A DNA stretch of 64,000 nucleotides, from positions 2,170,001 to 2,234,000 of the forward strand of contig NZ_CP094467.1 of the NCBI RefSeq assembly GCF_023347235.1, in the 5' to 3' direction. The notes beneath the pieces are model-generated. The model was given only the letters and a program-made list of their open reading frames with translations, made no database searches and was not told the origin of the DNA. This document shows, piece by piece, positions 43,549 to 54,698 of this stretch. The translations under genes and the position numbers were made by a program. Positions within the stretch are counted from its first letter, which is position 1; each line of letters opens with the position of its first letter. This DNA comes from Faecalibacterium sp. I4-1-79. GTDB taxonomy: Bacteria; Bacillota; Clostridia; Oscillospirales; Ruminococcaceae.

Positions 43549-44481
43549 ATGGGCATCGTAGTCATCGGAGCTGTTTTTGTGGACATCAAGGGCTATCCCC
43601 TTTCCACCTATATCCCCGGCGGACGCAACGCCGGACGCATCGAGCAGGTACACGGCGGCGTGAGCCGCAATGTGGTGGAGGATATCGCCAACGTGGAGCT
43701 GCGCCCCACCTTTGTGGGTCTGGTGGACGACACCGGTATGGGACAGGACGTCATCGACAAGCTGGCAAGGCACAAGGTCAACACCCGCTTTATCCAGAAA
43801 AAGCCGGACGGCATGGGCACATGGCTGGCCATTTTTGACAACGATGGCGATGTGCACGCCGCCATCTCCAAGCGGCCGGACACCACCCCGCTGACCGGTC
43901 TGCTGCAGGAGCAGGGCGACGCCATTTTTGCAAACTGCGATTCCATTGCGCTGGAGCTGGACCTCGAAAAAGAAACGGTAAAGCAGACCCTGCGCTACGC
44001 TAAAAAGTACGGCAAAAAGGTGTTTGCCGCAGTCTCCAACATGAGCATCGCCATGGAGCGGCGGGATTTTTTGCAGCAGATCGATTGTTTTGTATGCAAC
44101 CAGCAGGAGGCCGGGCTGCTGTTCTCGGACGACTACGACCACCTCTCCCCGGACGAGATGTGCCGGGTGCTCACGGGCAACGTGCGCAGCGCCAACATTC
44201 CCAGCATGGTGGTGACCATGGGCGGGCAGGGCGCGGTATACGCCTGTGCAGACGGTGACTGCGGCATCGTACCCGCCAAAAAGGTGGACGTTATGGACAC
44301 CACCGGTGCGGGGGACGCCTTCTTTGCCGGCACGGTCATCGGCCTGACCTACGGCAAAACGCTGGCAGAATCCTGCGAGATCGGCAGCCGTCTGGCCGCT
44401 TCGGTCATCTGCATCACCGAGAACGTCTGTCCCCGCTTCCGCCCGCAGGAGTTCGGGCTGGATGTGCCGGTGGTGGATTAA
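43549..44481 (+). CDS. PfkB family carbohydrate/nucleoside kinase
   Basis: A 310-aa ribokinase-superfamily kinase. The N-terminal glycine-rich motif GGVSRNVVEDIA (36-47) and the C-terminal signature DTTGAGDAFFAG (250-261, catalytic Asp256) are intact. Substrate specificity is not decidable; ribokinase, pseudouridine kinase and fructokinase relatives are all possible. AGAAAGG precedes the ATG. It is flanked by two covarying terminator elements, so it is monocistronic. Confidence 0.88.
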   Translation: MGIVVIGAVFVDIKGYPLSTYIPGGRNAGRIEQVHGGVSRNVVEDIANVELRPTFVGLVDDTGMGQDVIDKLARHKVNTRFIQKKPDGMGTWLAIFDNDGDVHAAISKRPDTTPLTGLLQEQGDAIFANCDSIALELDLEKETVKQTLRYAKKYGKKVFAAVSNMSIAMERRDFLQQIDCFVCNQQEAGLLFSDDYDHLSPDEMCRVLTGNVRSANIPSMVVTMGGQGAVYACADGDCGIVPAKKVDVMDTTGAGDAFFAGTVIGLTYGKTLAESCEIGSRLAASVICITENVCPRFRPQEFGLDVPVVD

Positions 44482-44484
44482 CGG

Positions 44485-44590
44485 TTTGGAATGGTCTCCG
44501 CTGCGCTCTGACCATTTTCAGCGGAAAAATTATTTATATTTTGCCAACCGGGAAAATCTGCGGATTTTCCCGGTTGGCCTTTTCACGGTT
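44485..44590 (+). terminator. covarying hairpin element, copy C (after the PfkB kinase gene)
   Basis: The left hairpin ATGGTC/GACCAT encloses TCCGCTGCGCTCT. The main hairpin at 44543-44578 (stem GCCAACCGGGAAAA, loop TCTGCGGA) is followed by TTTTCACGG. The left stem differs from copy A by a compensatory base-pair change (C-G versus T-A). Confidence 0.85.
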
Positions 44591-44620
44591 GGATTTTTGC
44601 GAAAAACCGCATTTTCCCCC

Positions 44621-44649
44621 TTGACAGAAGCGGCAGTTTCTGGTATCAA
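44621..44649 (+). promoter_or_regulatory. promoter of the riboswitch/decarboxylase beta-subunit unit
   Basis: TTGACA, a 17-nt spacer and TATCAA, predicting transcription from about 44656. Confidence 0.75.
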
Positions 44650-44654
44650 TAAAA

Positions 44655-44804
44655 ATGATAAAGGGGAGTAAAGGGCAGCCCGCCGGTCAAGGCTTTTTCC
44701 GGCAGGCCGCTGCATGGCAGCGTCATCACGGCAGCAATGCCCGATGTCATGTGTTCGCTTGAGACTTTTGTCACAGATCTTACGCTGTGGCAAGGGTCTT
44801 TTTT
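44655..44804 (+). promoter_or_regulatory. cation riboswitch (yybP-ykoY-like) with terminator platform
   Basis: The aptamer begins TGATAAAGGGGAGTA, contains CCGGTCAAGGC then TTCCGGC, and ends CTTGAGACTTTTGTCA. These blocks match the order of the Mn2+ yybP-ykoY core as I know it (AAGGGGAGTA; GTCAA; CCGGC; GAGACCTTT). P1 pairs TGATAAAG with CTTTTGTCA. A 15-bp terminator (AGACTTTTGTCACAG with CTGTGGCAAGGGTCT, then TTTTTT; 44762-44804) re-uses the P1 3' strand, so ligand-stabilised P1 should allow readthrough. The downstream gene is a Na+ pump subunit, which also makes a Na+-sensing class a candidate. A second copy lies at 53185-53340. Confidence 0.7.
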
Positions 44805-44844
44805 CTTGCCGCAGCATCAGAACAAAAGGAGGCAGAAAAACAAT

Positions 44845-45975
44845 ATGAATTTCTGGAACACATTCGCCGCGCTCTTTTCAAATTTCGGGGCGCTGACATG
44901 GCAGATGGTGGTCATGTGGGGCATCGGTGCCCTGCTCATTTACCTTGCCATCGTCAAAAAGATGGAGCCCAGTCTGCTGCTGCCCATGGGGTTCGGTGCC
45001 ATTCTGGTCAATCTTCCCGCATCCGGTGCCATCACGCAGGGAGACACCGTTGGCCCCATCTCTGCCCTGTTCGAGGCAGGTATGTCCAACGAGCTGTTCC
45101 CGCTGCTGCTGTTCATCGGCATCGGTGCCATGATCGATTTTGGCCCGCTGCTGGAAAAGCCGTGGCTCATGCTGTTTGGCGCAGCGGCACAGTTCGGCAT
45201 CTTTTTCACCCTGTTTCTTGCCGGGTTCTTCTTTGATATGAAGGACGCCGCGTCCATTGCGGTCATCGGCGCAGCGGACGGCCCCACCGCCATTTTTGTG
45301 GCAAACACCCTGAAATCCCAGTATCTGGGCGCAATTATGGTGGCAGCTTACAGCTACATGGCGCTGGTGCCCATCGTGCAGCCGCCGGTCATCCGTCTGC
45401 TGACCACCCAGAAGGAGCGCCGCATCCGTATGCCCTACGAAAAAGGCAACGTCACCCAGCTGACCAAGATCCTGTTCCCCGTTGTGGTCACAGTGGTCGC
45501 CGGTCTGGTAGCCCCGGCCAGCGTGGCGCTGGTAGGCTTTTTGATGTTCGGCAACCTGCTGCGGGAGTGCGGGGTGCTGAACTCCCTGAGCGAGACCGCC
45601 CAGAACGTGCTGGCAAACCTCATCACCCTGCTGCTGGGTCTGACCGTTGCCGGGCAGATGACCGCCGACAAGTTCGTCCGGCCGGATACTTTGCTCATCA
45701 TGGCGCTGGGTCTTGTGGCCTTTATCTTTGATACTGCTGGCGGCGTGCTGTTCGCTAAGCTGCTTAACCTCTTCCTGCCCGAGGGCAAAAAGCTGAACCC
45801 CATGATCGGCGCGGCAGGCATTTCGGCCTTCCCCATGAGCGGACGCGTGGTCAACAAGATGGGTCTGGCCGAGGACAACCAGAATTTCCTGCTGATGTAT
45901 TCCATCAGCGTCAACGTTTCCGGGCAGATCGCATCCGTCCTTGCCGGCGGACTGATCCTTTCCCTGATGGCTTAA
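44845..45975 (+). CDS. oadB: sodium ion-translocating decarboxylase, beta subunit
   Basis: Membrane subunit that couples decarboxylation of a biotin-bound carboxyl group to Na+ export (oxaloacetate, glutaconyl-CoA or methylmalonyl-CoA decarboxylases). The 376-aa protein has about 10 TM segments, the essential Asp145 in GAADGPTAIF, and the C-terminal NVSGQIASVLAGG. The ATG at 44845 follows AAAGGAGG. Only beta and a gamma-like peptide are here; the alpha and biotin-carrier subunits must lie elsewhere, so the substrate is not known and the symbol is by family only. Confidence 0.9.
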   Translation: MNFWNTFAALFSNFGALTWQMVVMWGIGALLIYLAIVKKMEPSLLLPMGFGAILVNLPASGAITQGDTVGPISALFEAGMSNELFPLLLFIGIGAMIDFGPLLEKPWLMLFGAAAQFGIFFTLFLAGFFFDMKDAASIAVIGAADGPTAIFVANTLKSQYLGAIMVAAYSYMALVPIVQPPVIRLLTTQKERRIRMPYEKGNVTQLTKILFPVVVTVVAGLVAPASVALVGFLMFGNLLRECGVLNSLSETAQNVLANLITLLLGLTVAGQMTADKFVRPDTLLIMALGLVAFIFDTAGGVLFAKLLNLFLPEGKKLNPMIGAAGISAFPMSGRVVNKMGLAEDNQNFLLMYSISVNVSGQIASVLAGGLILSLMA

Positions 45976-45988
45976 CGGAGGTGCCTTT

Positions 45989-46117
45989 ATGCTTCATCTT
46001 TCTTCCTGGATGACCACCCTGCCCATGATGCTCATCGGCATGACCGGTATCCTGCTGGTCATCGGCTTTCTCGTGCTGGTTGTGATGGCGCTGAACTGCC
46101 TCACCCGCCGCAAGTAA
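45989..46117 (+). CDS. 42-aa OadG-like gamma subunit of the decarboxylase
   Basis: A 42-codon gene 13 bp after the beta subunit with GGAGG upstream. It encodes a single transmembrane helix (about residues 12-37) and ends NCLTRRK. OadG gamma subunits are small one-helix proteins (usually about 80 aa), so this is a plausible minimal gamma, though family membership cannot be shown from 42 residues. Confidence 0.65.
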   Translation: MLHLSSWMTTLPMMLIGMTGILLVIGFLVLVVMALNCLTRRK

Positions 46118-46138
46118 AAGAAAAAATAGGATAAGCAA

Positions 46139-46180
46139 GCCGCCCGGGAGGATCTGCGGATCTTCCCGGGCGGCTTTTTT
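46139..46180 (+). terminator. covarying hairpin element, copy G (after the decarboxylase genes)
   Basis: A 14-bp stem GCCGCCCGGGAGGA with loop TCTGCGGA is followed by TTTTTTCAC. It ends the beta/gamma unit. Confidence 0.85.
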
Positions 46181-46212
46181 CACAGGCGCAGACGGCGCTG
46201 CTTTTGCCGGCT

Positions 46213-47043
46213 TCATCCCCGGGCGTCCTGCCGGGTGGTATGGAAGTACTCCTTGGGGGTCATGCCGTACTCCTTTTTAAAGGCGCGGAAAAAGTGGTTG
46301 TAACCGCCAAAGCCGCTGGTCTTGTACACCTCGGTGATGGGAAGCCCCTGCTCGATGAGGGTGCAGCAGCGGTCTAACCGCGCCTTTACGATATAGCGGT
46401 GCACCGTCTGCCCGGTCTGGCGTTTAAATTCCCGGGCAATATGTTCCCGGGAGACGAAAAACTCCTTTTCCAGCCGCTCCAGCGTCAGCTCCTCGGTAAG
46501 GTGCGCCTGAATAAACAAAAACACCTCATCCAGCATCAGGTGGTGGCGGCTGACCGATGCGGTGTGGAACTCCGCATGGATGCAGGCGCGCAGCGCCAGC
46601 ACCACGAACATCTGCAGAATACCGTGCTCGAATACCGCTGCGCCGAACTGGGTGCGCTCCTGCGGGAGCATCAGCAGCTTCCGGGCAAGGTTTTTCAGCA
46701 GCATATAGATCTGGCTGTCCGGGCGGACGGCTACCTGCCGGAAGGGCACCACGTTGAAGCTTTTTTCAAGGTCGGTGTCCGCGTCCGAAAGCTGCGCCAG
46801 CGTCTGGGGAGACAGCTGCACCCGAATAAGTTCCAGCGGGCCGTAAGCACCGGCGTATTCCAGCCTGCCGCCCTGACCGGGCTTGAAGATGATGAGGTTC
46901 TGCTGCTGTGCGGGCAGCACCACCTCGCTGCACCGGAACACACCACTGCCCCGCATGACCAGAAACAAATCATAATACGCGCCGGAATAAAATTCCCGGA
47001 CGGCGCTCTGCTCAAAAAAATAACGCTTGACTGTATAGTTCAC
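46213..47043 (-). CDS. AraC family transcriptional regulator
   Basis: A 276-aa regulator: an N-terminal cupin-like sensing region (about 1-150) and a C-terminal AraC double HTH (about 175-275; LERLEKEFFVSREHIAREF, then YNHFFRAFKKEYGMTPKEY). The start is GTG at 47043, 8 nt after GGAGG; the longer ORF runs through the promoter region. It is divergent from the transporter-esterase-reductase genes and is their likely activator (inference from position). The ligand is unknown. Confidence 0.9.
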   Translation of the reverse strand: MNYTVKRYFFEQSAVREFYSGAYYDLFLVMRGSGVFRCSEVVLPAQQQNLIIFKPGQGGRLEYAGAYGPLELIRVQLSPQTLAQLSDADTDLEKSFNVVPFRQVAVRPDSQIYMLLKNLARKLLMLPQERTQFGAAVFEHGILQMFVVLALRACIHAEFHTASVSRHHLMLDEVFLFIQAHLTEELTLERLEKEFFVSREHIAREFKRQTGQTVHRYIVKARLDRCCTLIEQGLPITEVYKTSGFGGYNHFFRAFKKEYGMTPKEYFHTTRQDARG

Positions 47044-47080
47044 CAAAAAAACCTCCGTGAAACTGTCATGTGTAACAGAT

Positions 47081-47188
47081 TGTTGTACACAACAGAAAAG
47101 TACAACTGTTATAATTGCATAATACATCAATTTGTGATAGTTTTCAATCATTTTTTGGATATGTATTGATGGAAATTTAACGTATAAT
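47081..47188. promoter_or_regulatory. divergent control region of the AraC gene and the transporter operon
   Basis: Minus promoter TTGAAA, 17 nt, TATTAT at 47119-47147 for the AraC gene. A perfect palindrome TGTTGT-AC-ACAACA at 47081-47094 lies just downstream of it, with AACAG/CTGTT-type half-sites around (47071-47112). On the plus strand TATAAT at 47183-47188 has no -35 at the right distance, consistent with activator dependence of the operon. Confidence 0.65.
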
Positions 47189-47258
47189 GCAAAGTGTAGA
47201 AAAGAGACTTGTGCGAAAAGTCTCGTGGTTTCACTGTTTTTAAGGAGGATAAAACACA

Positions 47259-48647
47259 ATGGACCAGAAAAAGACCGTCCGACCCTTCTCCATGAAGGAC
47301 AAGATCGGCTATACACTGGGCGATCTGGGCTGCTGCTTTACTGAGCAGTACCGCGCCATGTATCTGTCGATCTTCTACACCCTGATCCTGCAGGTCAACC
47401 CCTTCCATGTGGGTATCCTGCTGCTGGTCACCAAGATCTGGGACGCCGTGAACGACCCCATCATCGGCGCGATCGTGGACTCCCGCAAGGCCACCAAGGG
47501 CGGCAAGTTCATCCCGTGGATCCGCGCCTTCTCCTTCCCCATGGCAGTGCTGTGCATACTGGGCTTTGTCAATGTGGGCAACATCAACTACGGCCTGCGT
47601 CTGGCCTACATGTTCGTCACCTACGTTCTGTACGAGGCACTGTACACCTGCGTCAACGTGCCCTTCGGTACCCTGTCCAGCGTGATGACCGATGATGTCA
47701 GCCAGCGCACCGCACTGTCCCGCTACCGCAGCCTTGGCGGCACCATCTTCATGACCGTCATGGTCATGATCGGCCCCCTGTTCCTGTATGTGGACAACAA
47801 GCCCGTGGCTGGCCGCTTCCTGATGCTGGCCTGCATCTGCGCTATGCTGGGCCTGCTGTGCCTGCAGATCACCTGCGTGTGGTGCAAGGAGCGCGTGGAA
47901 GTGCCCGAGCGTCCGCAGGGCGAAAAGCTGAACTACCTGCACGTGCTCAAGGAGATCTCTCACAATAAGGCTCTGCTGGGCGTTATGTTCTTCAGCCTGA
48001 CCGGCATGATCGGTGCTTCCGTGGTCAACGGTCTGAACACCTACCTGTATAAGGACTTCTTCGGCAACGTTAAAATTCAGGCTGTCTCTGGCATGCTGAG
48101 CGTGCTGTACGCTGTGCTGTCCTTTGCCATCACCCAGCCTCTTGCCAACAAGTTCGGCAAGAAGGAGTGGTGCTGCATGGGCGCCGGCTTTGCCGCCATC
48201 GTGTTTGGCATCCTGTTCTTCTTCCCCGTCCATAACCCCGTGGCCTTCATCGTCATCAACGGTATCTGCTATCTGGGCGCTTCCGGCATGCAGGTGCTGA
48301 TCTGGGCTATGGTCAACGACGCCATCGACTACCACGAGCTGCAGACCGGCGAGCGCAACGAGGGCATCGTTTACTCCACCTATTCCTTCTTCCGCAAGCT
48401 TGCAAGCGCCATTTCCGGCAGCCTGTCCAACTTTGTGCTGGGTGCCATCGGCTACAACGTGACCGCAGGCGCTGTGCAGACCGCAGGCGTTGTGAACGCC
48501 ATCTGGAAGAGCTACACCGGCGTCTACTTCCTGGGCTACGGCATTGCAGTTGCCATCCTGTTCTTCGTCTATCCCCTGACCAAGCAGAAGACTGCCGAGA
48601 TGCTGACCGAGCTGAAGACTCGCCGCGCCGCAAAGGAGAGCAAGTAA
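47259..48647 (+). CDS. GPH family (MFS) glycoside/pentoside/hexuronide:cation symporter
   Basis: A 462-aa transporter with 12 predicted TM helices. The N-terminal region (KIGYTLGDLGCCFTEQYRAMY, then TKIWDAVNDPIIGAIVDSR) is typical of MelB/UidB-type symporters. These carry sugars or sugar conjugates with Na+ or H+. First gene of an operon with the esterase and the ene-reductase; AAGGAGG precedes the ATG. The partner enzymes suggest the cargo is an esterified or conjugated compound rather than a plain disaccharide. Confidence 0.9.
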   Translation: MDQKKTVRPFSMKDKIGYTLGDLGCCFTEQYRAMYLSIFYTLILQVNPFHVGILLLVTKIWDAVNDPIIGAIVDSRKATKGGKFIPWIRAFSFPMAVLCILGFVNVGNINYGLRLAYMFVTYVLYEALYTCVNVPFGTLSSVMTDDVSQRTALSRYRSLGGTIFMTVMVMIGPLFLYVDNKPVAGRFLMLACICAMLGLLCLQITCVWCKERVEVPERPQGEKLNYLHVLKEISHNKALLGVMFFSLTGMIGASVVNGLNTYLYKDFFGNVKIQAVSGMLSVLYAVLSFAITQPLANKFGKKEWCCMGAGFAAIVFGILFFFPVHNPVAFIVINGICYLGASGMQVLIWAMVNDAIDYHELQTGERNEGIVYSTYSFFRKLASAISGSLSNFVLGAIGYNVTAGAVQTAGVVNAIWKSYTGVYFLGYGIAVAILFFVYPLTKQKTAEMLTELKTRRAAKESK

Positions 48648-48650
48648 ACC

Positions 48651-49406
48651 ATGAAGATCTTACAGGTTCAGTTTAAAAACCGCAATGGCCACACCCTGCG
48701 CGGCATCGTGACCCTGCCCGACACCGAGGGCAAGGTACCCTTTGTGGTGCATCTGCACGGCTTTGCCGGCAGCTGCAGCGGCTACAAGTCCATGTACACT
48801 CACCTGTCCCGCGCTCTGGCAGCGCAGGGCATCGGCAGCGCCCGGTTCGATTTCTACGGCAACGGCGAGAGCGACGGCGAGTTCGAGGATATGAGCTTCG
48901 ACGGCCTGCACACCGATGCACAGGATATCTTTGCATGGGCCGCTGAGCAGCCCTATGTGGACAGCGAAAAGCTGTTCCTCTCCGGCCAGAGCATGGGCGG
49001 CTACATTGCCGCTTCCTGCGCACCGGTCATTCAGCCCCACGGCCTGATCCTGCTGTGCCCGGGCGCCGGGATGTGGTTCGGCTGCGCACAACGTGCCGAC
49101 GGCGTTGTGCAGACCGGCAGGGACTACACCGACATGGAGGGTCTGTGCTACAAGATGGCCTTTAACTACGAGATGGCCAAGCACCCCGACCCCTTTACCG
49201 AGGCCAAGGGCTACAACGGCCCGGTGCTGCTGCTGCGCGCCGACGATGACCGTCTGGTGGACGAGGGCACCTGCAGCCGTTACGCACAGGTGTACACCGC
49301 ACCCGAGGTGGACACCATTGCGGGCGGTGGCCACAACTTTGCCACGCTGGCAGCCCGTGCCGCCGTGGAGAAAAAGACCGCAGCATTCATCAAAGCAAAT
49401 CTGTAA
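48651..49406 (+). CDS. alpha/beta hydrolase, cinnamoyl (feruloyl) esterase-like
   Basis: A 251-aa cytoplasmic serine hydrolase. Nucleophile Ser114 in SGQSMGG, acid Asp198/199 in RADDDRLV, His228 in GGGHNF; oxyanion region HLHGFAG at 34-40. The block FDFYGNGESDGEFEDM (about 67-82) closely resembles gut cinnamoyl/feruloyl esterases such as Lactobacillus LJ0536 and Butyrivibrio Est1E (family knowledge). No signal peptide, so it acts after uptake by the neighbouring transporter. It starts 4 bp after that gene. Confidence 0.82.
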   Translation: MKILQVQFKNRNGHTLRGIVTLPDTEGKVPFVVHLHGFAGSCSGYKSMYTHLSRALAAQGIGSARFDFYGNGESDGEFEDMSFDGLHTDAQDIFAWAAEQPYVDSEKLFLSGQSMGGYIAASCAPVIQPHGLILLCPGAGMWFGCAQRADGVVQTGRDYTDMEGLCYKMAFNYEMAKHPDPFTEAKGYNGPVLLLRADDDRLVDEGTCSRYAQVYTAPEVDTIAGGGHNFATLAARAAVEKKTAAFIKANL

Positions 49407-49436
49407 AGCAAAGCGTATCTGCAAGGAGGCTTTTGT

Positions 49437-51362
49437 ATGGAAAACGTAATTCTGCAGCCCATCGAGGTGGGCGGACAGACCTTTAAAAACCGCATCATGT
49501 TCCCCCCGCTGACCACCGGCTACGAGAAAAACGGCATGATCAGCGAGCAGGACATGGGCTTCTACACCCGTCTGGCAAAGGGCGGCGTGGGCTACATCGT
49601 TATGGGCGATGTGGCACCCATCAACAGCTTTTCTCCCACCCCCAAGCTGTTTGACGACAGCCAGATTCCTGCCTTCAAGGCACTGGCCGACAGCGTACAC
49701 GCCTACGGCACCAAGCTGGGCATCCAGATCTTCCACCCGGAGTACGATGTGGACGCCATCAACAGCCTGTTTATGCAGAAGAAGTTTGACGAAATGCGTC
49801 AGCGCCTGCATCATGACATGATGTTCTTCACCGATGAGGTCACCGAGGAGATGCTGATGGCTATCATCGATAAGATGTGCGCCTGCGCAGTGCGTGCACA
49901 GAAGGCCGGTGTGGACGTCATCCAGATCCACGGCGACCGCCTGAACGGCTGCCTTTGCTCCACCCGCATGAACCACCGCACCGATAAGTTCGGCGGCAGT
50001 CTGGAGAACCGCGTCCGCTTTGCCCGCATGCTGACCCGCGCCATCCGCAAGGCTGTGCCGGATATGGTCATCGACTACAAGCTGTCCATCGTCACCCCGC
50101 AGCGCGGCAAGGGCGGCATTGACGAAGCCGACGCCGTGCAGTTTGCCCAGTGGCTGGTGGAGGACGGCGTGGATATGTTCCACGTTGCCCAGGCCAACCA
50201 CACCGGCAACATGGCCGACACCATTCCTCCCATGGGCGTACAGCCCTACGGCTTCTTCGTCAAGATCGCCGGGGACATCAAAAAGGCCGTCAATGTGCCG
50301 GTCAGCGCCGTGGGTCGTATCGTGGACGCCGACATGGCTGCGCGTGTCATCGAGAGCGGCATGGCCGACATAGTTGCCATGGGTCGCCCGCTGCTGGCAG
50401 ACCCCGACTGGGGCACCAAGATCGCTGCCGGGAAGGCCTGCGATATCCGCCGCTGCATCAGCTGCAACAAGGGCTGCACCGATGCCATCCAGAACCGCCA
50501 GTTCCTCTCCTGCGTGCTGAACGCGGAGAACGGCTACGAGAACACCCGCAGCATCCAGCCCGCAGCACAGAAAAAGAAGATCGCCGTCCTCGGCGGCGGC
50601 CCTGCCGGTCTGGAAGCCGCCCGTGTGGCAGCGTTGCGCGGCCATGACGTGACACTGTTTGAAAAGACCACCACTCTGGGCGGTCAGCTGAACATTGCCT
50701 GCGTGCCTCCCCGCAAGGAGGAGATGCGCCGCGCCACACAGGACCTGATCCACGCGGTCTGCAACGCCGGTGTGCACCTGTGCATGGGTCAGACCCGCAC
50801 CGCCGAGCAGCTGAAGGACGCCGGTTTTGAGGCCGTCATCAACGCTGTGGGCGCACACAGCGCCGCACCCCGCATTCCCGGCATTGACAGCGTGAACGTT
50901 GCCGACGCGTGGAAGGTTCTGGCGGGCGAGCAGCAGGTATATGGCACGGTTGCCGTCATCGGCGGCGGTATGGTGGGCTGCGAGACCGCAGAGTATCTGG
51001 CTGCCCGCGGCTGCAAGGTGTCCGTTATCGAGATGATGGACAAGATCGCCGCAGGCGAGAGCACCACCATTCTGCCCACCCTGCTGGAAAACTACAAGAC
51101 CTACGGCGTGGAGCAGTACCCCAGCCACAAGGTCAAGGAGTTCCGCATGGATGCCGTCGTCTGCGAGAACAAGGACGGCGCAGAGGTGACCATCCCCTGC
51201 GATTACATCGTACTGGCCATGGGCGCACGCTCCAACGCATTTGACGCTGCTGCGCTGGAAGCTGCCGGTATCCCGGTGTATTCCATCGGCGATGCCGCCG
51301 GTAAGGCTGCAGATATCTCCAACGCCATCCGCACCGGTTACGATACCGCCTGCCAGCTGTAA
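49437..51362 (+). CDS. FMN/4Fe-4S/FAD ene-reductase (2,4-dienoyl-CoA reductase/enoate reductase/BaiCD family)
   Basis: A 641-aa oxidoreductase. Residues 1-335 form an Old Yellow Enzyme-type FMN barrel. Cys340, 343, 347 and 359 (C-x2-C-x3-C-x11-C) should bind a 4Fe-4S cluster. A FAD motif GGGPAG is at 386-391 and a second dinucleotide motif VIGGGMVGCE near 507. The family reduces activated C=C bonds with NAD(P)H. The stretch equivalent to the catalytic Tyr loop in FadH (GYLIN) reads HGDRLNGCLCS, so the Tyr is absent and the pocket differs. Third gene of the AraC-controlled cluster. The substrate is unknown. Confidence 0.88.
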   Translation: MENVILQPIEVGGQTFKNRIMFPPLTTGYEKNGMISEQDMGFYTRLAKGGVGYIVMGDVAPINSFSPTPKLFDDSQIPAFKALADSVHAYGTKLGIQIFHPEYDVDAINSLFMQKKFDEMRQRLHHDMMFFTDEVTEEMLMAIIDKMCACAVRAQKAGVDVIQIHGDRLNGCLCSTRMNHRTDKFGGSLENRVRFARMLTRAIRKAVPDMVIDYKLSIVTPQRGKGGIDEADAVQFAQWLVEDGVDMFHVAQANHTGNMADTIPPMGVQPYGFFVKIAGDIKKAVNVPVSAVGRIVDADMAARVIESGMADIVAMGRPLLADPDWGTKIAAGKACDIRRCISCNKGCTDAIQNRQFLSCVLNAENGYENTRSIQPAAQKKKIAVLGGGPAGLEAARVAALRGHDVTLFEKTTTLGGQLNIACVPPRKEEMRRATQDLIHAVCNAGVHLCMGQTRTAEQLKDAGFEAVINAVGAHSAAPRIPGIDSVNVADAWKVLAGEQQVYGTVAVIGGGMVGCETAEYLAARGCKVSVIEMMDKIAAGESTTILPTLLENYKTYGVEQYPSHKVKEFRMDAVVCENKDGAEVTIPCDYIVLAMGARSNAFDAAALEAAGIPVYSIGDAAGKAADISNAIRTGYDTACQL

Positions 51363-51385
51363 AACAAAAAAATATCGTTTTATTT

Positions 51386-51428
51386 GTGGGTCAGAAACGT
51401 CTGTGGGCGCTTCTGACCCACTTTTTTT
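51386..51428 (+). terminator. covarying hairpin element, copy F (after the ene-reductase gene)
   Basis: Stem GTGGGTCAGAA..TTCTGACCCAC with loop containing TCTGTGGG, followed by TTTTTTT. Confidence 0.8.
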
Positions 51429-51429
51429 A

Positions 51430-51890
51430 CCCTCTCAGGCAAAGCCGTCAGGGTTTTGCCTTGCCCTCTCAGGCGCTAACGCGCCAGATTCCCCTTTTTG
51501 TCACCTACGGTGACATCTTCCCCCGGAGCGGGGGAAGTCTTTCCTCAAAGGGAGAGCCAAGGTTTAAAGTCCGTTGCTAAAGTATTAGGCGCAATGAGGA
51601 AGCTTCCGGTGGTGCTCTTGCCTCTCCCTTTGGGAGAGGTGGCATCGCGCAGCGATGACGGAGAGGGCGCACGTCGCTGAACTCCCCCAGTCGCCTATGG
51701 CGACAGATTTCCCTTTTTGTCACCTGCGGCGACATCTTCCCCCGGCCGGGGGAAGTCGTCCTCTGAGATGGGGCCTTTGGCATGACGGTATAGTTTCCGG
51801 CTAAAGCGCAAAGCTTGCGGGCGCGTCAGAGGCTCCCTCCCAGAGGGAGCTGGCAAAGCCGTCAGGCTTTGACTGAGGGAGTTCGTTCCA
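51430..51890. repeat. cluster of intergenic hairpin repeats
   Basis: At least five members of the CCCTCTC/GAGAGGG and CTTCCCCCGG families lie side by side, some nested: CCTCTCAGGC pairs, TTCCCCCGGAGCGGGGGAA, CCTCTCCCTTTGGGAGAGG followed by GACGGAGAGGGC, TTCCCCCGGCCGGGGGAA, and CTCCCTCCCAGAGGGAG followed by GACTGAGGGAG. Two direct copies of TTTGTCACCT-CGG-GACATCTTCCCCCGG (about 51498 and 51717) show duplication. No credible ORF. Confidence 0.8.
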
Positions 51891-51908
51891 AACCCTTCCC
51901 GTGAAAAT

Positions 51909-51944
51909 GGAATACCGGAGCGTCCGCAGACGCTCCGGTATTCC
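51909..51944 (-). terminator. covarying hairpin element, copy D
   Basis: On the minus strand GGAATACCGGAGCG with loop TCTGCGGA, preceded by TTCAGCGGAAAAATTATTT and followed by ATTTTCACGG. It lies downstream of the antiporter terminator. The segment 51945-52130 holds no supported feature. Confidence 0.75.
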
Positions 51945-52130
51945 GAAATTATAAAATAATTTTTCCGCTGAATATGGCCAAAGTGCAACGACGACGACCG
52001 CCGCCAGTGGCGGAAACAGGGAGGAGTTGTTGGGGCAGCGGCCAGCAAAACGCAAGTGCCGCCCAAGGCACGATGCGGATGCTGGGTGCCGCAACCCGAT
52101 AGCGGCGGCCATTCCAAATCGTCCTACATA

Positions 52131-52166
52131 AAAAGGCTGCTGCACAGTGCTTTGTGCAGCAGCCTT
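52131..52166 (-). terminator. terminator of the CaCA antiporter gene
   Basis: AAGGCTGCTGCACA pairs with TGTGCAGCAGCCTT; on the minus strand it is followed by TTTTT. Confidence 0.88.
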
Positions 52167-52189
52167 AAATATTTTACGTTTACAACAGA

Positions 52190-53149
52190 TCAGATGCTGA
52201 ACTGCACGGCGCAGAAAGCGGCATAGATGCACAGCAGTGCAATGCCCTGCGGGCGGCTCAGCTTGCCCTTGATCAGAGCGGGCAGGGTGAGCAGCAGCAT
52301 CACGGCAAACATGACCGGGATATCCATCACCAGCGAGGCGTTCATGCCTGCGATGGTGGAGTTCTGCGGGATGCTGAAGGGTGCCAGCGTGACGGACACG
52401 CCGCTGACCAGCACCAGATTGAACACGTTTGCACCGATGACGTTGCCCAGCGACAGCGCACCGTGACCCTTTGCCAGCGAGGTAATGGCGGTGACCAGCT
52501 CCGGCAGCGAGGTGCCCAGTGCCACAAAGGTCAGCGCAATGACAGACTCCGGCACGCCCAGCGCCTGTGCGATGAGGGTGCCGTTGTCCACCAGCAGGTC
52601 AGCGCCCACAGCAATGAGCACCGCACCGATGGCCAGCAGCCCCAGCTCCTTGGCAAAGGAGCCTTCCTCAGCCTGCTCTTCCTCTTCCGGGGCGGTGGCG
52701 TTTTTCATAGCCAGCACGTTGCACACGATGTAAGCCACGAACATGGCCAGCAGGATCAGACCCACCGGGCGGGTGAAGGAGCCGGTGGTGTAGGCCACAC
52801 CGGCATAGAAAGCGGCAGCCACAAAGAAGAAGGCCACCGGGGTGCGCAGGCTCTTGGGGTCAACCTTGCCCGGGCGCACCGCAATGGTGATGGCGGCGAT
52901 CAGAGCAGAGTTGCAGATGACCGAGCCGATGGCGTTGCCGTAGGCGATCTCGCCGTGACCGGTGAGGGCAGAGGTAGTGGACACCATGACCTCCGGCAGG
53001 GTGGTACCGATGGACACCACCGTGGCACCGATGAGCAGCTCCGGCACATGGAAGCGGCGGGCGATGCCGGTGGCACCGTCTACAAACCAGTCGCCGCCCT
53101 TGATCAGGCACAGCAGACCCACGATAAATAACAGAACAGGGATCAGCAT
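52190..53149 (-). CDS. CaCA family calcium (cation)/Na+ antiporter, YrbG-like
   Basis: A 319-aa inner-membrane antiporter with about 10 TM helices and the two inverted alpha-repeats: GTTLPEVMVS near 50-60 and GTSLPELVTA near 205-215. It exchanges Ca2+ (or possibly Mn2+ or another cation) for Na+ or H+. The ATG at 53149 follows AAAAAGGAGAGATATT. A riboswitch with terminator precedes it, so expression responds to a cation (see 53185-53340). Confidence 0.92.
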   Translation of the reverse strand: MLIPVLLFIVGLLCLIKGGDWFVDGATGIARRFHVPELLIGATVVSIGTTLPEVMVSTTSALTGHGEIAYGNAIGSVICNSALIAAITIAVRPGKVDPKSLRTPVAFFFVAAAFYAGVAYTTGSFTRPVGLILLAMFVAYIVCNVLAMKNATAPEEEEQAEEGSFAKELGLLAIGAVLIAVGADLLVDNGTLIAQALGVPESVIALTFVALGTSLPELVTAITSLAKGHGALSLGNVIGANVFNLVLVSGVSVTLAPFSIPQNSTIAGMNASLVMDIPVMFAVMLLLTLPALIKGKLSRPQGIALLCIYAAFCAVQFSI

Positions 53150-53184
53150 AATATCTCTCCTTTTTAATAATAGCGGCAGAGGCA

Positions 53185-53340
53185 CAAAAAAAGACCCTTA
53201 TCACATCCAGCCCAAAACGGGGAAATGTGATAAAAGTCTCAAGCATCCGGTACTGCATCGGGCATTTCTGCCGGGACTGTCGCTACAGCACAGCGCACCG
53301 GTTTTTCAACCAAGGTACGCCCCTTACTCCCTTTTATCCA
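53185..53340 (-). promoter_or_regulatory. cation riboswitch (yybP-ykoY-like), second copy, with terminator platform
   Basis: On the minus strand: GGATAAAAGGGAGTA at the 5' end, GGTTGAAAAACCGGTGC, CGGCAGAAATGCCCGATG, and GCTTGAGACTTTTATCACA at the 3' end. P1 pairs GATAAAAG with CTTTTATC (8 bp). The terminator at 53185-53238 pairs AGACTTTTATCACAT with ATGTGATAAGGGTCT (15 bp) and ends in TTTTTTT, sharing the P1 3' strand. Blocks CGGCAG-AATGCCCGATG and GCTTGAGACTTTT-TCAC are almost identical to the copy at 44655-44804. Confidence 0.72.
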
Positions 53341-53346
53341 GAGAAT

Positions 53347-53375
53347 ATTATACCTGTTTTCCGGCAAAAGCGCAA
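53347..53375 (-). promoter_or_regulatory. promoter of the antiporter riboswitch unit
   Basis: Minus strand TTGCGC, a 17-nt spacer and consensus TATAAT, ending just after the stop codon of the upstream gene. Confidence 0.75.
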
Positions 53376-53390
53376 GGGGAAATATGGGAT

Positions 53391-54698
53391 TTATTCTGCC
53401 TTGGTCACTTTTTTGGCGTTGGGGTAAATGCGCTCCATGCGGGCGTTGTCGAAATGCTCGTCAAGGAACACTTCCAGCTGGCCGTTGGGTGCTTCGCCGC
53501 TGGTGCGGGCATCGTACCGCGCCAGTGCCAGCGCGCTGGTAAGCACATTCACCACCATGAACACCGCCAGCGCCGCTGTCATCCACGGACGGATATGGCT
53601 GCGCACCTTTTTCATCAGCTTCAGCACCAGCGGATAGCCGTAGCGCATCCACATCACCGCCGCAATGCCCCAGAAAAAGCAGTACAGCAGGTTGATGCGC
53701 CCGCCCAGATTGAACTTGAACTTGCTGTAATCCCAGAACACGGTACCGAACAATAGCTCTGTGACAGCGCTGCACACATATTCATATACGCCGCCCAGCA
53801 CCGTGCCGAAAGCAAAGAGATAGCGGTCGCTTTTATCCTGATTTTGCCGCAGCAGCACGGTAGCCATGGCCAGCGCCAGCCCCCACACCACGCTGAAAGG
53901 CCCCCACACCAGACTGGAACGGCTCATCCACACCCCGGCGGTCAGGCGGCAGAACACGGTCTCCACCATGTCGCCCAGAAACGCCCCGATGACGAACAGC
54001 CACAGCAGGTCTGCCGCGCTGAGGAAGTCGGTTTTCCCCTTTTGCACTGCCGTGGGCTGCTGCCGGGCGGCTTCCGGGTAGGCGCGCTGGATACGCTTTT
54101 CCACATACACGGCAATGCGGCGGCGCAAGGTGTCGGAGCGCGCCTCCAGTTTCTGGTTCAGCTGTTCCAGCACTGGGTGCTGCGCCGCGTACCGCCCCAC
54201 CAGAACCGCCGAGCCCAGCTGATCCAGCGCCGCGATGCCAAGCGCAGCCCACACCAGCGGATGCAGCAGCCAGTCCGGCACAAGGGCGCACAGCCGCAGC
54301 AGCAGCCCATTGCCCCAAAGCACGGTCACCATGCCCAGCGCACCCCACAGCACCGAGTACTGCAGGCAGACGTAACCGTTCAGGTTGAGCTTTTTATCCG
54401 AGTAGTCCCACCATTTGCGGTTGTGCAGCCGCTCCAGCAGCTTTGCCGTGAGCCACTCCACCACGGTAGCCGTAAGCATACAGGCCACGAACAGCACCAC
54501 CGGCTTTGTGCGCATATCTGCAAAGCCCACTGCCATCAGGATGGCCGTAGTGCCATACACAAAGCAAAACGGCCCCGCCGCCATGCCGCGGTTTGCAAAC
54601 CGCTTGCCCCGGAAGGTAGCTACCACGGTCTCCCCTACCCACCCAAGGAAGGAATAGACCAGATACAGCACGCCCAGCGTGTAGAAGTTCAGTGTCAT
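53391..54698 (-). CDS. CmpB-family (putative ABC transporter permease) membrane protein, internally duplicated
   Basis: A 435-aa integral membrane protein of the PF06541-type family annotated as putative ABC transporter permease; function is unknown. Two homologous halves are visible: WDYSDKKLNLNGYVCLQYSV (about 96-115) and WDYSKFKFNLGGRINLLYCF (about 325-345), each within a five-helix bundle, joined by a charged linker (about 170-225). No ATPase gene is adjacent. GAGGAAAGCGCG precedes the ATG. Confidence 0.8.
   Translation of the reverse strand: MTLNFYTLGVLYLVYSFLGWVGETVVATFRGKRFANRGMAAGPFCFVYGTTAILMAVGFADMRTKPVVLFVACMLTATVVEWLTAKLLERLHNRKWWDYSDKKLNLNGYVCLQYSVLWGALGMVTVLWGNGLLLRLCALVPDWLLHPLVWAALGIAALDQLGSAVLVGRYAAQHPVLEQLNQKLEARSDTLRRRIAVYVEKRIQRAYPEAARQQPTAVQKGKTDFLSAADLLWLFVIGAFLGDMVETVFCRLTAGVWMSRSSLVWGPFSVVWGLALAMATVLLRQNQDKSDRYLFAFGTVLGGVYEYVCSAVTELLFGTVFWDYSKFKFNLGGRINLLYCFFWGIAAVMWMRYGYPLVLKLMKKVRSHIRPWMTAALAVFMVVNVLTSALALARYDARTSGEAPNGQLEVFLDEHFDNARMERIYPNAKKVTKAE

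Follow-up and report, generated by a model that had tools for sequence, protein, structure and literature searches.

The bilR locus of Faecalibacterium sp. I4-1-79

The 64,000-nucleotide stretch of DNA analysed here (further referred to as the window; all coordinates are positions within it) stems from Faecalibacterium sp. I4-1-79, whose genome (G000) consists of one contig of 3.23 Mb. It carries a four-gene cassette composed of a divergently oriented AraC-family regulator gene and an operon that spans from a GPH-family transporter gene, via an alpha/beta hydrolase gene, through the terminator downstream of bilR, the latter almost certainly encoding the long form of bilirubin reductase (BilR). 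The following features were identified, with FMN and FAD denoting flavin mononucleotide and flavin adenine dinucleotide, respectively:

46213..47043, minus strand: AraC-family regulator, divergent (list of open reading frames and family matches; relatives of 35–50% identity adjoin bilR outside the near copies)
47125..47164, plus strand: predicted AraC operator, direct repeat with 21-bp spacing (motif comparison; its second half overlaps the expected –35 place)
47183..47188, plus strand: –10 hexamer TATAAT, 58 bp after the operator start
47242..47248, plus strand: ribosome-binding site AAGGAGG ahead of the transporter gene (from sequence)
47259..48647, plus strand: GPH-family cation symporter of 462 aa, candidate importer of a bile-pigment conjugate (family models, trees and alignments)
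48651..49406, plus strand: alpha/beta hydrolase of 251 aa with triad S114/D200/H228, candidate bile-pigment ester hydrolase (families, alignment and profiles)
49437..51362, plus strand: BilR, long form, almost certainly, 641 aa (NCBIfam, HGDR at residues 165–168, FMN barrel, FAD/NAD(P) part)
51386..51428, plus strand: intrinsic terminator, with a stem-loop at 51386–51421 and a U run at 51422–51428 (–24.8 kcal/mol, z –6.48)

The first-pass annotation of this DNA had proposed an AraC-controlled set of a transporter, a hydrolase and an ene-reductase, and all four genes were indeed found where it had put them, with agreeing Pfam and NCBIfam labels and with intergenic gaps of 3 bp (transporter to hydrolase) and 30 bp (hydrolase to reductase). 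More specifically, the AraC gene product matches HTH_18/HTH_AraC, the transporter matches MFS_2 and TIGR00792 gph (290.5 bits vs. a cut-off of 231.35), the hydrolase matches Hydrolase_4, and the reductase matches Oxidored_FMN and Pyr_redox_2, in line with the FMN and FAD/NAD(P) domain layout noted earlier. The span originally delimited (47044–51362) holds the three structural genes, but leaves out the AraC gene and the terminator. The start codon of the AraC gene is uncertain, lying near 47043 in an open frame that extends to 47316.

The reductase is a long-form BilR

The reductase had initially been called an ene-reductase, the family to which the clostridial enoate (cinnamate) reductases belong, and the reduction of a cinnamate-type side chain had been proposed; this gave way to BilR on the basis of curated family models and of the active-site motif. 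NF045599 (bilirubin reductase, long form) was the top-scoring model: it covers residues 5–641 and gave 1026.2 bits (cut-off of 750), and the N-domain scored 529.6 bits against NF045592 (cut-off of 425). Moreover, the HGDR motif at residues 165–168 is invariant in a six-row alignment, and HGDRLNG stands in the window reductase where the catalytic Tyr of dienoyl-CoA/enoate reductases is found. Cysteines C340, C343, C347 and C359 are invariant in the alignment as well, and we take them to be the 4Fe-4S ligands.

According to Hall et al. (2024, PMC10769871), HGDR is the motif that defines BilR, its R167 corresponds to the catalytic Tyr (Y166) of dienoyl-CoA reductase, and D166/R167 are critical in the R. 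gnavus enzyme, of which the double alanine mutant was significantly less active; F. prausnitzii is named there among the bilR carriers. Since the BilR models were far exceeded and an Arg occupies the catalytic-Tyr place, reduction of cinnamate or other enoates is unlikely, and the bile acid reductase BaiCD was also rejected as a candidate (442.8 bits against NF041087, under its cut-off of 825). We therefore regard the identification as long-form BilR, as read from its sequence, as nearly certain.

No second Oxidored_FMN gene was found in the window genome, where bilR alone matched, so that neither an enoate reductase nor BilV is evident and the latter seems to be absent. E. coli expressing R. 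gnavus bilR alone has been reported to yield divinyl-urobilinogen and divinyl-urobilin (preprint PMC13252198, 2026).

The cassette is co-conserved in several families

To place the locus in a wider context, an 84,980-species collection was scanned with a bilR alignment, and 80 of the 119 loci found were kept. With bilR alone as the query, the AraC, GPH, hydrolase and bilR genes appeared in the same order and orientation in 19 of these 80 loci, and in two additional ones (L202 and L203). HGDR was present in 71 of the 80, and none of the nine loci without it had the full cassette. Near copies of the window cassette make up six of the 19 (L098–L101, L128 and L161, i.e., five Faecalibacterium records and one Gemmiger record), and among the remaining 13 are Faecalimonas umbilicata, Mediterraneibacter glycyrrhizinilyticus, Clostridium thermobutyricum, Romboutsia timonensis, and Roseburia/Agathobacter metagenome-assembled genomes, with identities to the window of 54–67% (bilR), 64–73% (GPH), 46–55% (hydrolase) and 35–50% (AraC). 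The cassette order is thus also carried by Lachnospiraceae, Clostridium and Romboutsia, and the co-conservation on which the first-pass annotation had staked its proposal holds across several families.

A hydrolase gene with bilR only was seen in one locus, i.e., that of Collinsella sp. BA40 (L113, 9109–15153), where a hydrolase of 59% identity to that of the window accompanies bilR without GPH or AraC, and where FeoA-, FeoA- and FeoB-like genes (by eye) lie downstream of bilR. Close bilR relatives that are cassette-free (58–68% identity; L107, L109, L112, L115–L117, L119, L124–L126, L129 and L154) occur in Flavobacterium, Bizionia, Gelidibacter, Psychrobacter, Acinetobacter and Lysobacter, including some whose names refer to the Antarctic. 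In two further Psychrobacter loci (L157 and L158), bilR lies in two overlapping frames and is apparently broken or misassembled.

Within the genus, a 641-residue BilR together with the cassette was found in 10 of 31 genomes (the window genome, G003, G008, G009, G012, G014, G015, G016, G018 and G030), while G021 (with a longer BilR form) and nine short-BilR loci lack such neighbours. Cassette-class GPH proteins (877–883 bits) were present in exactly these 10 genomes, the next match scoring 319 bits; this genome search, like those for the hydrolase, bilR and beta-glucuronidase given below, scored the first-look candidates of each genome, and absences hold at that sensitivity. Elsewhere in the family, six Gemmiger/Fournierella-type genomes have AraC and bilR only, and one genome of another genus (G377, the contig of L111) has the whole cassette at 40–65% identity.

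A profile of 15 cassette hydrolases matched four of 396 window-family genomes at E ≤ 1e-35 (395–433 bits), each time adjoining bilR; the window and G377 hydrolases are part of this profile, and the remaining two are near-duplicates of the window hydrolase. By comparison, 39 of the 396 genomes gave a bilR-type match at E 1e-100, 34 of them over the cut-off. In a second family (f7, that of G561), the profile matched four of 319 genomes at E 1e-30: two hydrolases outside the profile, at 385 and 427 bits, lie directly before bilR, and the other two matches (187 and 113 bits) are in genomes without a bilR match, bilR occurring in 12 of the 319. Cassette-class hydrolases (385–433 bits) were hence found in six of 715 genomes of the two families, adjoining bilR in 6/6, with 187 bits as the next best score. 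The window hydrolase as a single query against 398 phylum genomes (E 1e-40) retrieved its own genome alone, a threshold too strict to say more.

Pairwise distances of the four proteins are correlated (r of 0.80–0.86 over 16 cassettes). On an 80-row bilR tree made by a quick method, the cassette state changes seven times, which implies several gains, losses or transfers, and none of the 21 cassette rows has a BilV-like neighbour within 5 kb. This tree omits L077–L082 and L208 (contigs of rows already named), L205 (an insertion-like row without cassette), L206 (a 4-kb contig), L127, L152, L156–L159, L168 and L175 (short contigs, truncated or broken frames), the non-HGDR rows other than three outgroups (L167, L171, L173 and L176), and further short-bilR loci.

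A shared operator precedes the first structural gene

A 40-bp element with consensus tATCAATTTtTGatAgTTtTnnAtCAAnaaaTGgATATgt, consisting of a direct repeat with 21-bp spacing, is common to the region between AraC and the first structural gene of 23 loci, i.e., the window, 16 other cassette loci and six AraC-bilR loci (omitting the near copies L098–L101, L161, L105, L164 and L174, and L148 with its weak AraC match). Its mean leave-one-out score was 30.5, while 30 Markov shuffles, each run from three random starts with the best one taken, reached 6.6 at most. This difference has to be weighed against the seeding of the model from the window site, the random starts of the shuffles, and the fact that shuffles ignore relatedness. 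The score exceeded 10 in 21 of the 23 loci, and the two others (L111 with 8.4 and L110 with –2.8) have the 21-bp repeat by eye.

A –10-like hexamer starts at +58 from the operator start in 20 of the 23 loci (16 TATAAT, three GATAAT and one GACAAT) and a TATAAT at +59 or +60 in the remaining three, placing such a hexamer at +58 to +60 in 23/23; L118, L121 and L123 have another TATAAT at +35. Mean pairwise identity over 22 of these loci (L128 omitted) amounts to 66 and 57% for the half-sites and 78% for the –10 hexamer, vs. 42% upstream, 35% in the spacer and 34% downstream. Moreover, a degenerate operator pattern (at most three mismatches) matched once per genome in the 10 cassette genomes of the genus and not at all in the other 21, and its reversed control had no match in the 31 genomes, with the proviso that weaker sites would escape the pattern. 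The element also recurs, with TATAAT at +58, in a Subdoligranulum variabile record (OY725841.1) outside the operator model.

Where transporter and hydrolase are absent, the operator directly precedes bilR, with strong sites in L140 and L143 and weaker ones in L104, L106 and L108, so that it is bilR, rather than the other two genes, with which AraC is linked. At araI, the second half-site overlaps the –35 place, and the same overlap with the expected –35 place in the window suggests that AraC acts as an activator. That the cassette forms a regulated operon-regulon unit is, in our view, firmly supported.

The hydrolase and transporter form distinct clades

The sequence block FDFYGNGESDGEFEDM and the Ser/Asp/His triad earlier ascribed to the hydrolase are both present, and the triad (S114/D200/H228) is invariant across 15 aligned cassette hydrolases. 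The proposed link to cinnamoyl/feruloyl esterases was upheld in part: the archaeal feruloyl esterase PET46 (7wwh, 168 bits in profile comparison) and cinnamoyl esterases (3pf8, 104 bits) share a superfamily, the alpha/beta hydrolase fold and the Ser-Asp-His triad with the cassette hydrolase, but its closest solved relative is a long-chain monoacylglycerol lipase (7q4h/7q4j/8b9s, 205 bits), so that the name feruloyl esterase is not established. The cassette hydrolases differ from both lipase and PET46 in W142 and R196, which are invariant across the 15 proteins and mark the cassette clade; R196 adjoins the triad acid, and a His replaces it in 7q4h, 7wwh and two genomic outgroups. The lipase has been described as possessing a hydrophobic lid tunnel and as separating a small polyol from its hydrophobic acyl group (PMC10682391). 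As regards a possible ABHD10-like function, a weak sequence match (E 2e-4) was obtained with 6ny9_B; ABHD10 is an alpha/beta hydrolase reported to cleave acyl glucuronides (PMC8389839).

By eye, no signal peptide is evident on the hydrolase or on BilR; hence both probably work intracellularly, and a polar conjugate would need an importer. In the GPH transporter, D62/D66 align with WDAINDP of MelB, and we presume this MelB-type Asp pair to play its functional role in GPH symporters. Its top match in the PDB is the lysolipid carrier MFSD2A.

A candidate operon for conjugated bile pigment

With the balance tilting modestly in its favor, we interpret the cassette as an operon dedicated to bile pigment: GPH would bring in a bilirubin ester conjugate, the hydrolase would deconjugate it and BilR would reduce the pigment. 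The liver secretes bilirubin as acyl (ester) glucuronides, which are polar, and because genes for an ester hydrolase and a symporter directly precede bilR, uptake and de-esterification of such a conjugate are suggested. An alpha/beta hydrolase would suit this role, with the cleavage of acyl glucuronides by ABHD10 as a precedent and a monoacylglycerol lipase as the closest solved relative. In the proposed mechanism, the local AraC-family activator would sense bile pigment, bind the direct-repeat operator over the –35 place and turn on gph-hydrolase-bilR; the symporter would take up a polar bilirubin ester conjugate (a mono-/diglucuronide or other sugar ester); the cytoplasmic hydrolase would split the acyl ester into free bilirubin and sugar; and BilR would reduce the methine bridges with NAD(P)H via FAD, 4Fe-4S and FMN. 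BilS would be needless, since BilR has its own FAD part, and divinyl-urobilinogen is the predicted product since BilV seems absent. The released glucuronate could be used, as the genome has uronate isomerase. The sequence data themselves establish the gene families, the membership of the reductase in BilR, the co-conservation, the common operator with its one match per cassette genome, and the terminator; the enzyme and transport activities, the inducer, the activation, and the substrates of transporter and hydrolase are what we infer by reasoning from these data. A bolder extension, i.e., that the cassette constitutes a beta-glucuronidase (GUS)-independent route for conjugated bilirubin, with AraC sensing bile pigment, that spread by transfer among gut Clostridia, is conceivable, although we would not bet on it.

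Several observations weigh against the import and deconjugation of a bilirubin conjugate. First, bilR does not depend on its partners, since 10 of the 71 HGDR loci have AraC (at least 85 bits) and bilR only and another 41 lack all three partners in the stretch covered, some of these being short contigs. Second, the four single-gene trees, in which the main groups recur, disagree in places, e.g., over the position of L111. Third, the transporter scored 210 bits against the UidB glucuronide carrier model NF007353 (under its cut-off of 528), and in an 18-row tree the cassette GPH clade (100/99) stands apart from UidB and from GUS-linked GPHs rather than as their sister; a UidB-like carrier is accordingly not supported by sequence, although the cargo may be of the glucuronide type. 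Finally, the window genome encodes a GUS (678.9 bits, 43% identity to UidA), an enzyme commonly held to split bilirubin glucuronides, so that the cassette esterase may be unneeded.

The GUS cut-off was passed by 18 of the 31 genus genomes, including six of the 10 cassette genomes (G000, G003, G008, G009, G014 and G015), while the other four (G012, G016, G018 and G030) show weaker glycosidase matches below it. Cassette and GUS are therefore neither exclusive nor tied, and GUS as the sole deconjugase was rejected. In G015, G008 and G003 (L216–L218), GUS genes adjoin another GPH carrier, likely as a pair for the uptake of glucuronides that is separate from the bil GPH.

An unlikely though serious alternative is that GPH moves free bilirubin, biliverdin or a reduced product (by uptake or export) and that the hydrolase is an accessory acting on, e.g., lipid esters that carry the pigment, without any conjugate being involved. 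The likeness of the transporter to MFSD2A and of the hydrolase to monoacylglycerol lipase would fit this scenario, as would the GUS in the genome. However, transporter and hydrolase are mostly gained or lost together: in the 30 loci where AraC scored 85 bits or more or a hydrolase was matched, transporter and hydrolase are both present in 19 and both absent from 10, and one locus has the hydrolase alone. Moreover, the finding of the cassette-class hydrolase only beside bilR suggests that BilR acts on the product of this hydrolase.

Rather improbable is the handling of another ester-bearing linear tetrapyrrole (e.g., dietary chlorophyll-derived phyllobilins, or phycobilins), of which the hydrolase would remove a methyl or sugar ester before reduction of the bilin by the BilR homologue. 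Biliverdin is also used by BilR (PMC13252198), so bilins in general may be substrates, and Flavobacterium, Psychrobacter and Acinetobacter, for which bilirubin is no obvious substrate, have close relatives of bilR. These environmental bilR loci are without cassette, however, and the named cassette carriers are mostly gut bacteria. In the gut, host bile pigment is the main bilin supply.

The import and hydrolysis of a plant phenolic ester followed by cinnamate side-chain reduction, as envisaged in the first-pass annotation, has become very improbable: the hydrolase does belong to the superfamily of cinnamoyl esterases and PET46, but it is closer to the lipase and forms a clade with its own W142 and R196, and the BilR models together with HGDR in place of the catalytic Tyr point to a bilirubin reductase. 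Finally, that the genes are neighbors by accident or hitch-hiking, without shared function, is barely credible: the location of the block does vary among Faecalibacterium genomes and one Gemmiger, by which linkage could be passive, but its order is kept in several families at 46–73% identity of the structural proteins, a single operator precedes it with one match in each cassette genome of the genus, the four proteins diverge in a correlated manner, the cassette-class hydrolase sits beside bilR, and the cassette-class GPH is confined to cassette genomes within the genus.

Genomic surroundings and transfer

Seven of the nine other genus loci align to the window only from 45972–46213 to 51363–51493 and have other surroundings, five of them aligning again from about 52110 over a cation exchanger gene. 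L034 and L035 share the surroundings of the window. L040 carries the cassette in the opposite orientation with respect to the exchanger. A block of ca. 6.8 kb in Gemmiger formicilis MCC627 (L099, 6659–13490, corresponding to window 46096–53444), comprising cassette and cation exchanger, is 94.5–99.5% identical to three Faecalibacterium loci, with F. hattorii APC922/41-1 as the closest (up to 98.9–99.5%), and its flanks give no further match to these three loci at E 1e-20. Because the block is near-identical while the flanks do not match, we read it as a recent transfer. A complete cassette with operator also resides on a 93.6-kb circular record of Subdoligranulum variabile labelled plasmid 7 (OY725841.1, L226), with identities to the window of 57% (AraC), 85% (GPH), 67% (hydrolase) and 74% (bilR).

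Between bilR and the exchanger, window 51494–52109 is unaligned in 10 of 11 loci compared (matches over 250 bp), L034 being the exception, and holds repeats of the kind GTCACCTACGGTGACATCTTCCCCCGG; it is perhaps a small inserted repeat element. Upstream, window 43549–45975 contains genes for a PfkB-family kinase and a sodium-pump decarboxylase beta subunit, which adjoin the cassette only in L034 and L035 among the nine other genus loci and are probably unrelated to it.

Relation to described bilirubin systems

The window BilR shares its domain layout, HGDR and a score above the NF045599 cut-off with the long-form BilR of R. gnavus, but strain CC55_001C of the latter is described as having just bilR (PMC10769871), whereas bilR is the last gene of the AraC-GPH-hydrolase operon in the window. 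The bilQRS operon (MarR regulator, short BilR and flavodoxin-like BilS; PMC10769871) is likewise a regulated bilirubin-reductase operon. Membership of bilQRS was nevertheless rejected, since the window has AraC in place of MarR, an FAD part of its own instead of a BilS flavodoxin between GPH and terminator, and a transporter and hydrolase in addition. The bilR-bilV pair (PMC13252198) also joins bilR to an accessory gene, but BilV is a second old yellow enzyme (OYE), and one Oxidored_FMN gene was found in the window genome. Finally, uidAB-type carrier/GUS pairs similarly combine a GPH carrier with a conjugate-splitting hydrolase, but the cassette GPH is 26% identical to UidB and belongs to another clade, and the cassette hydrolase is of the alpha/beta serine type instead of a glycosidase.

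A literature search found no description of an AraC-GPH-hydrolase bilR operon, with supplements lying outside this search and possibly mentioning one. The preprint PMC13252198 surveyed bilR neighborhoods in GTDB, and its main text never mentions "transporter", "hydrolase" or "AraC"; "uptake" and "transporter" are also missing from the main texts of both PMC10769871 and PMC13252198. Searches yielded no usable literature on bilirubin-conjugate esterases or bilirubin sugar conjugates. The cassette would represent a bilirubin-reductase operon of a type that we did not find described.

The Faecalibacterium operon names a candidate importer, a candidate deconjugase, and a candidate bile-pigment sensor together with its operator, so that the matter becomes testable with four genes. 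If the hydrolase deconjugates, metagenome surveys that count GUS genes would overlook some of the bilirubin deconjugation. If the GUS-independent route is true, one cell would take bilirubin glucuronide to urobilinogen-type products without releasing reabsorbable bilirubin.

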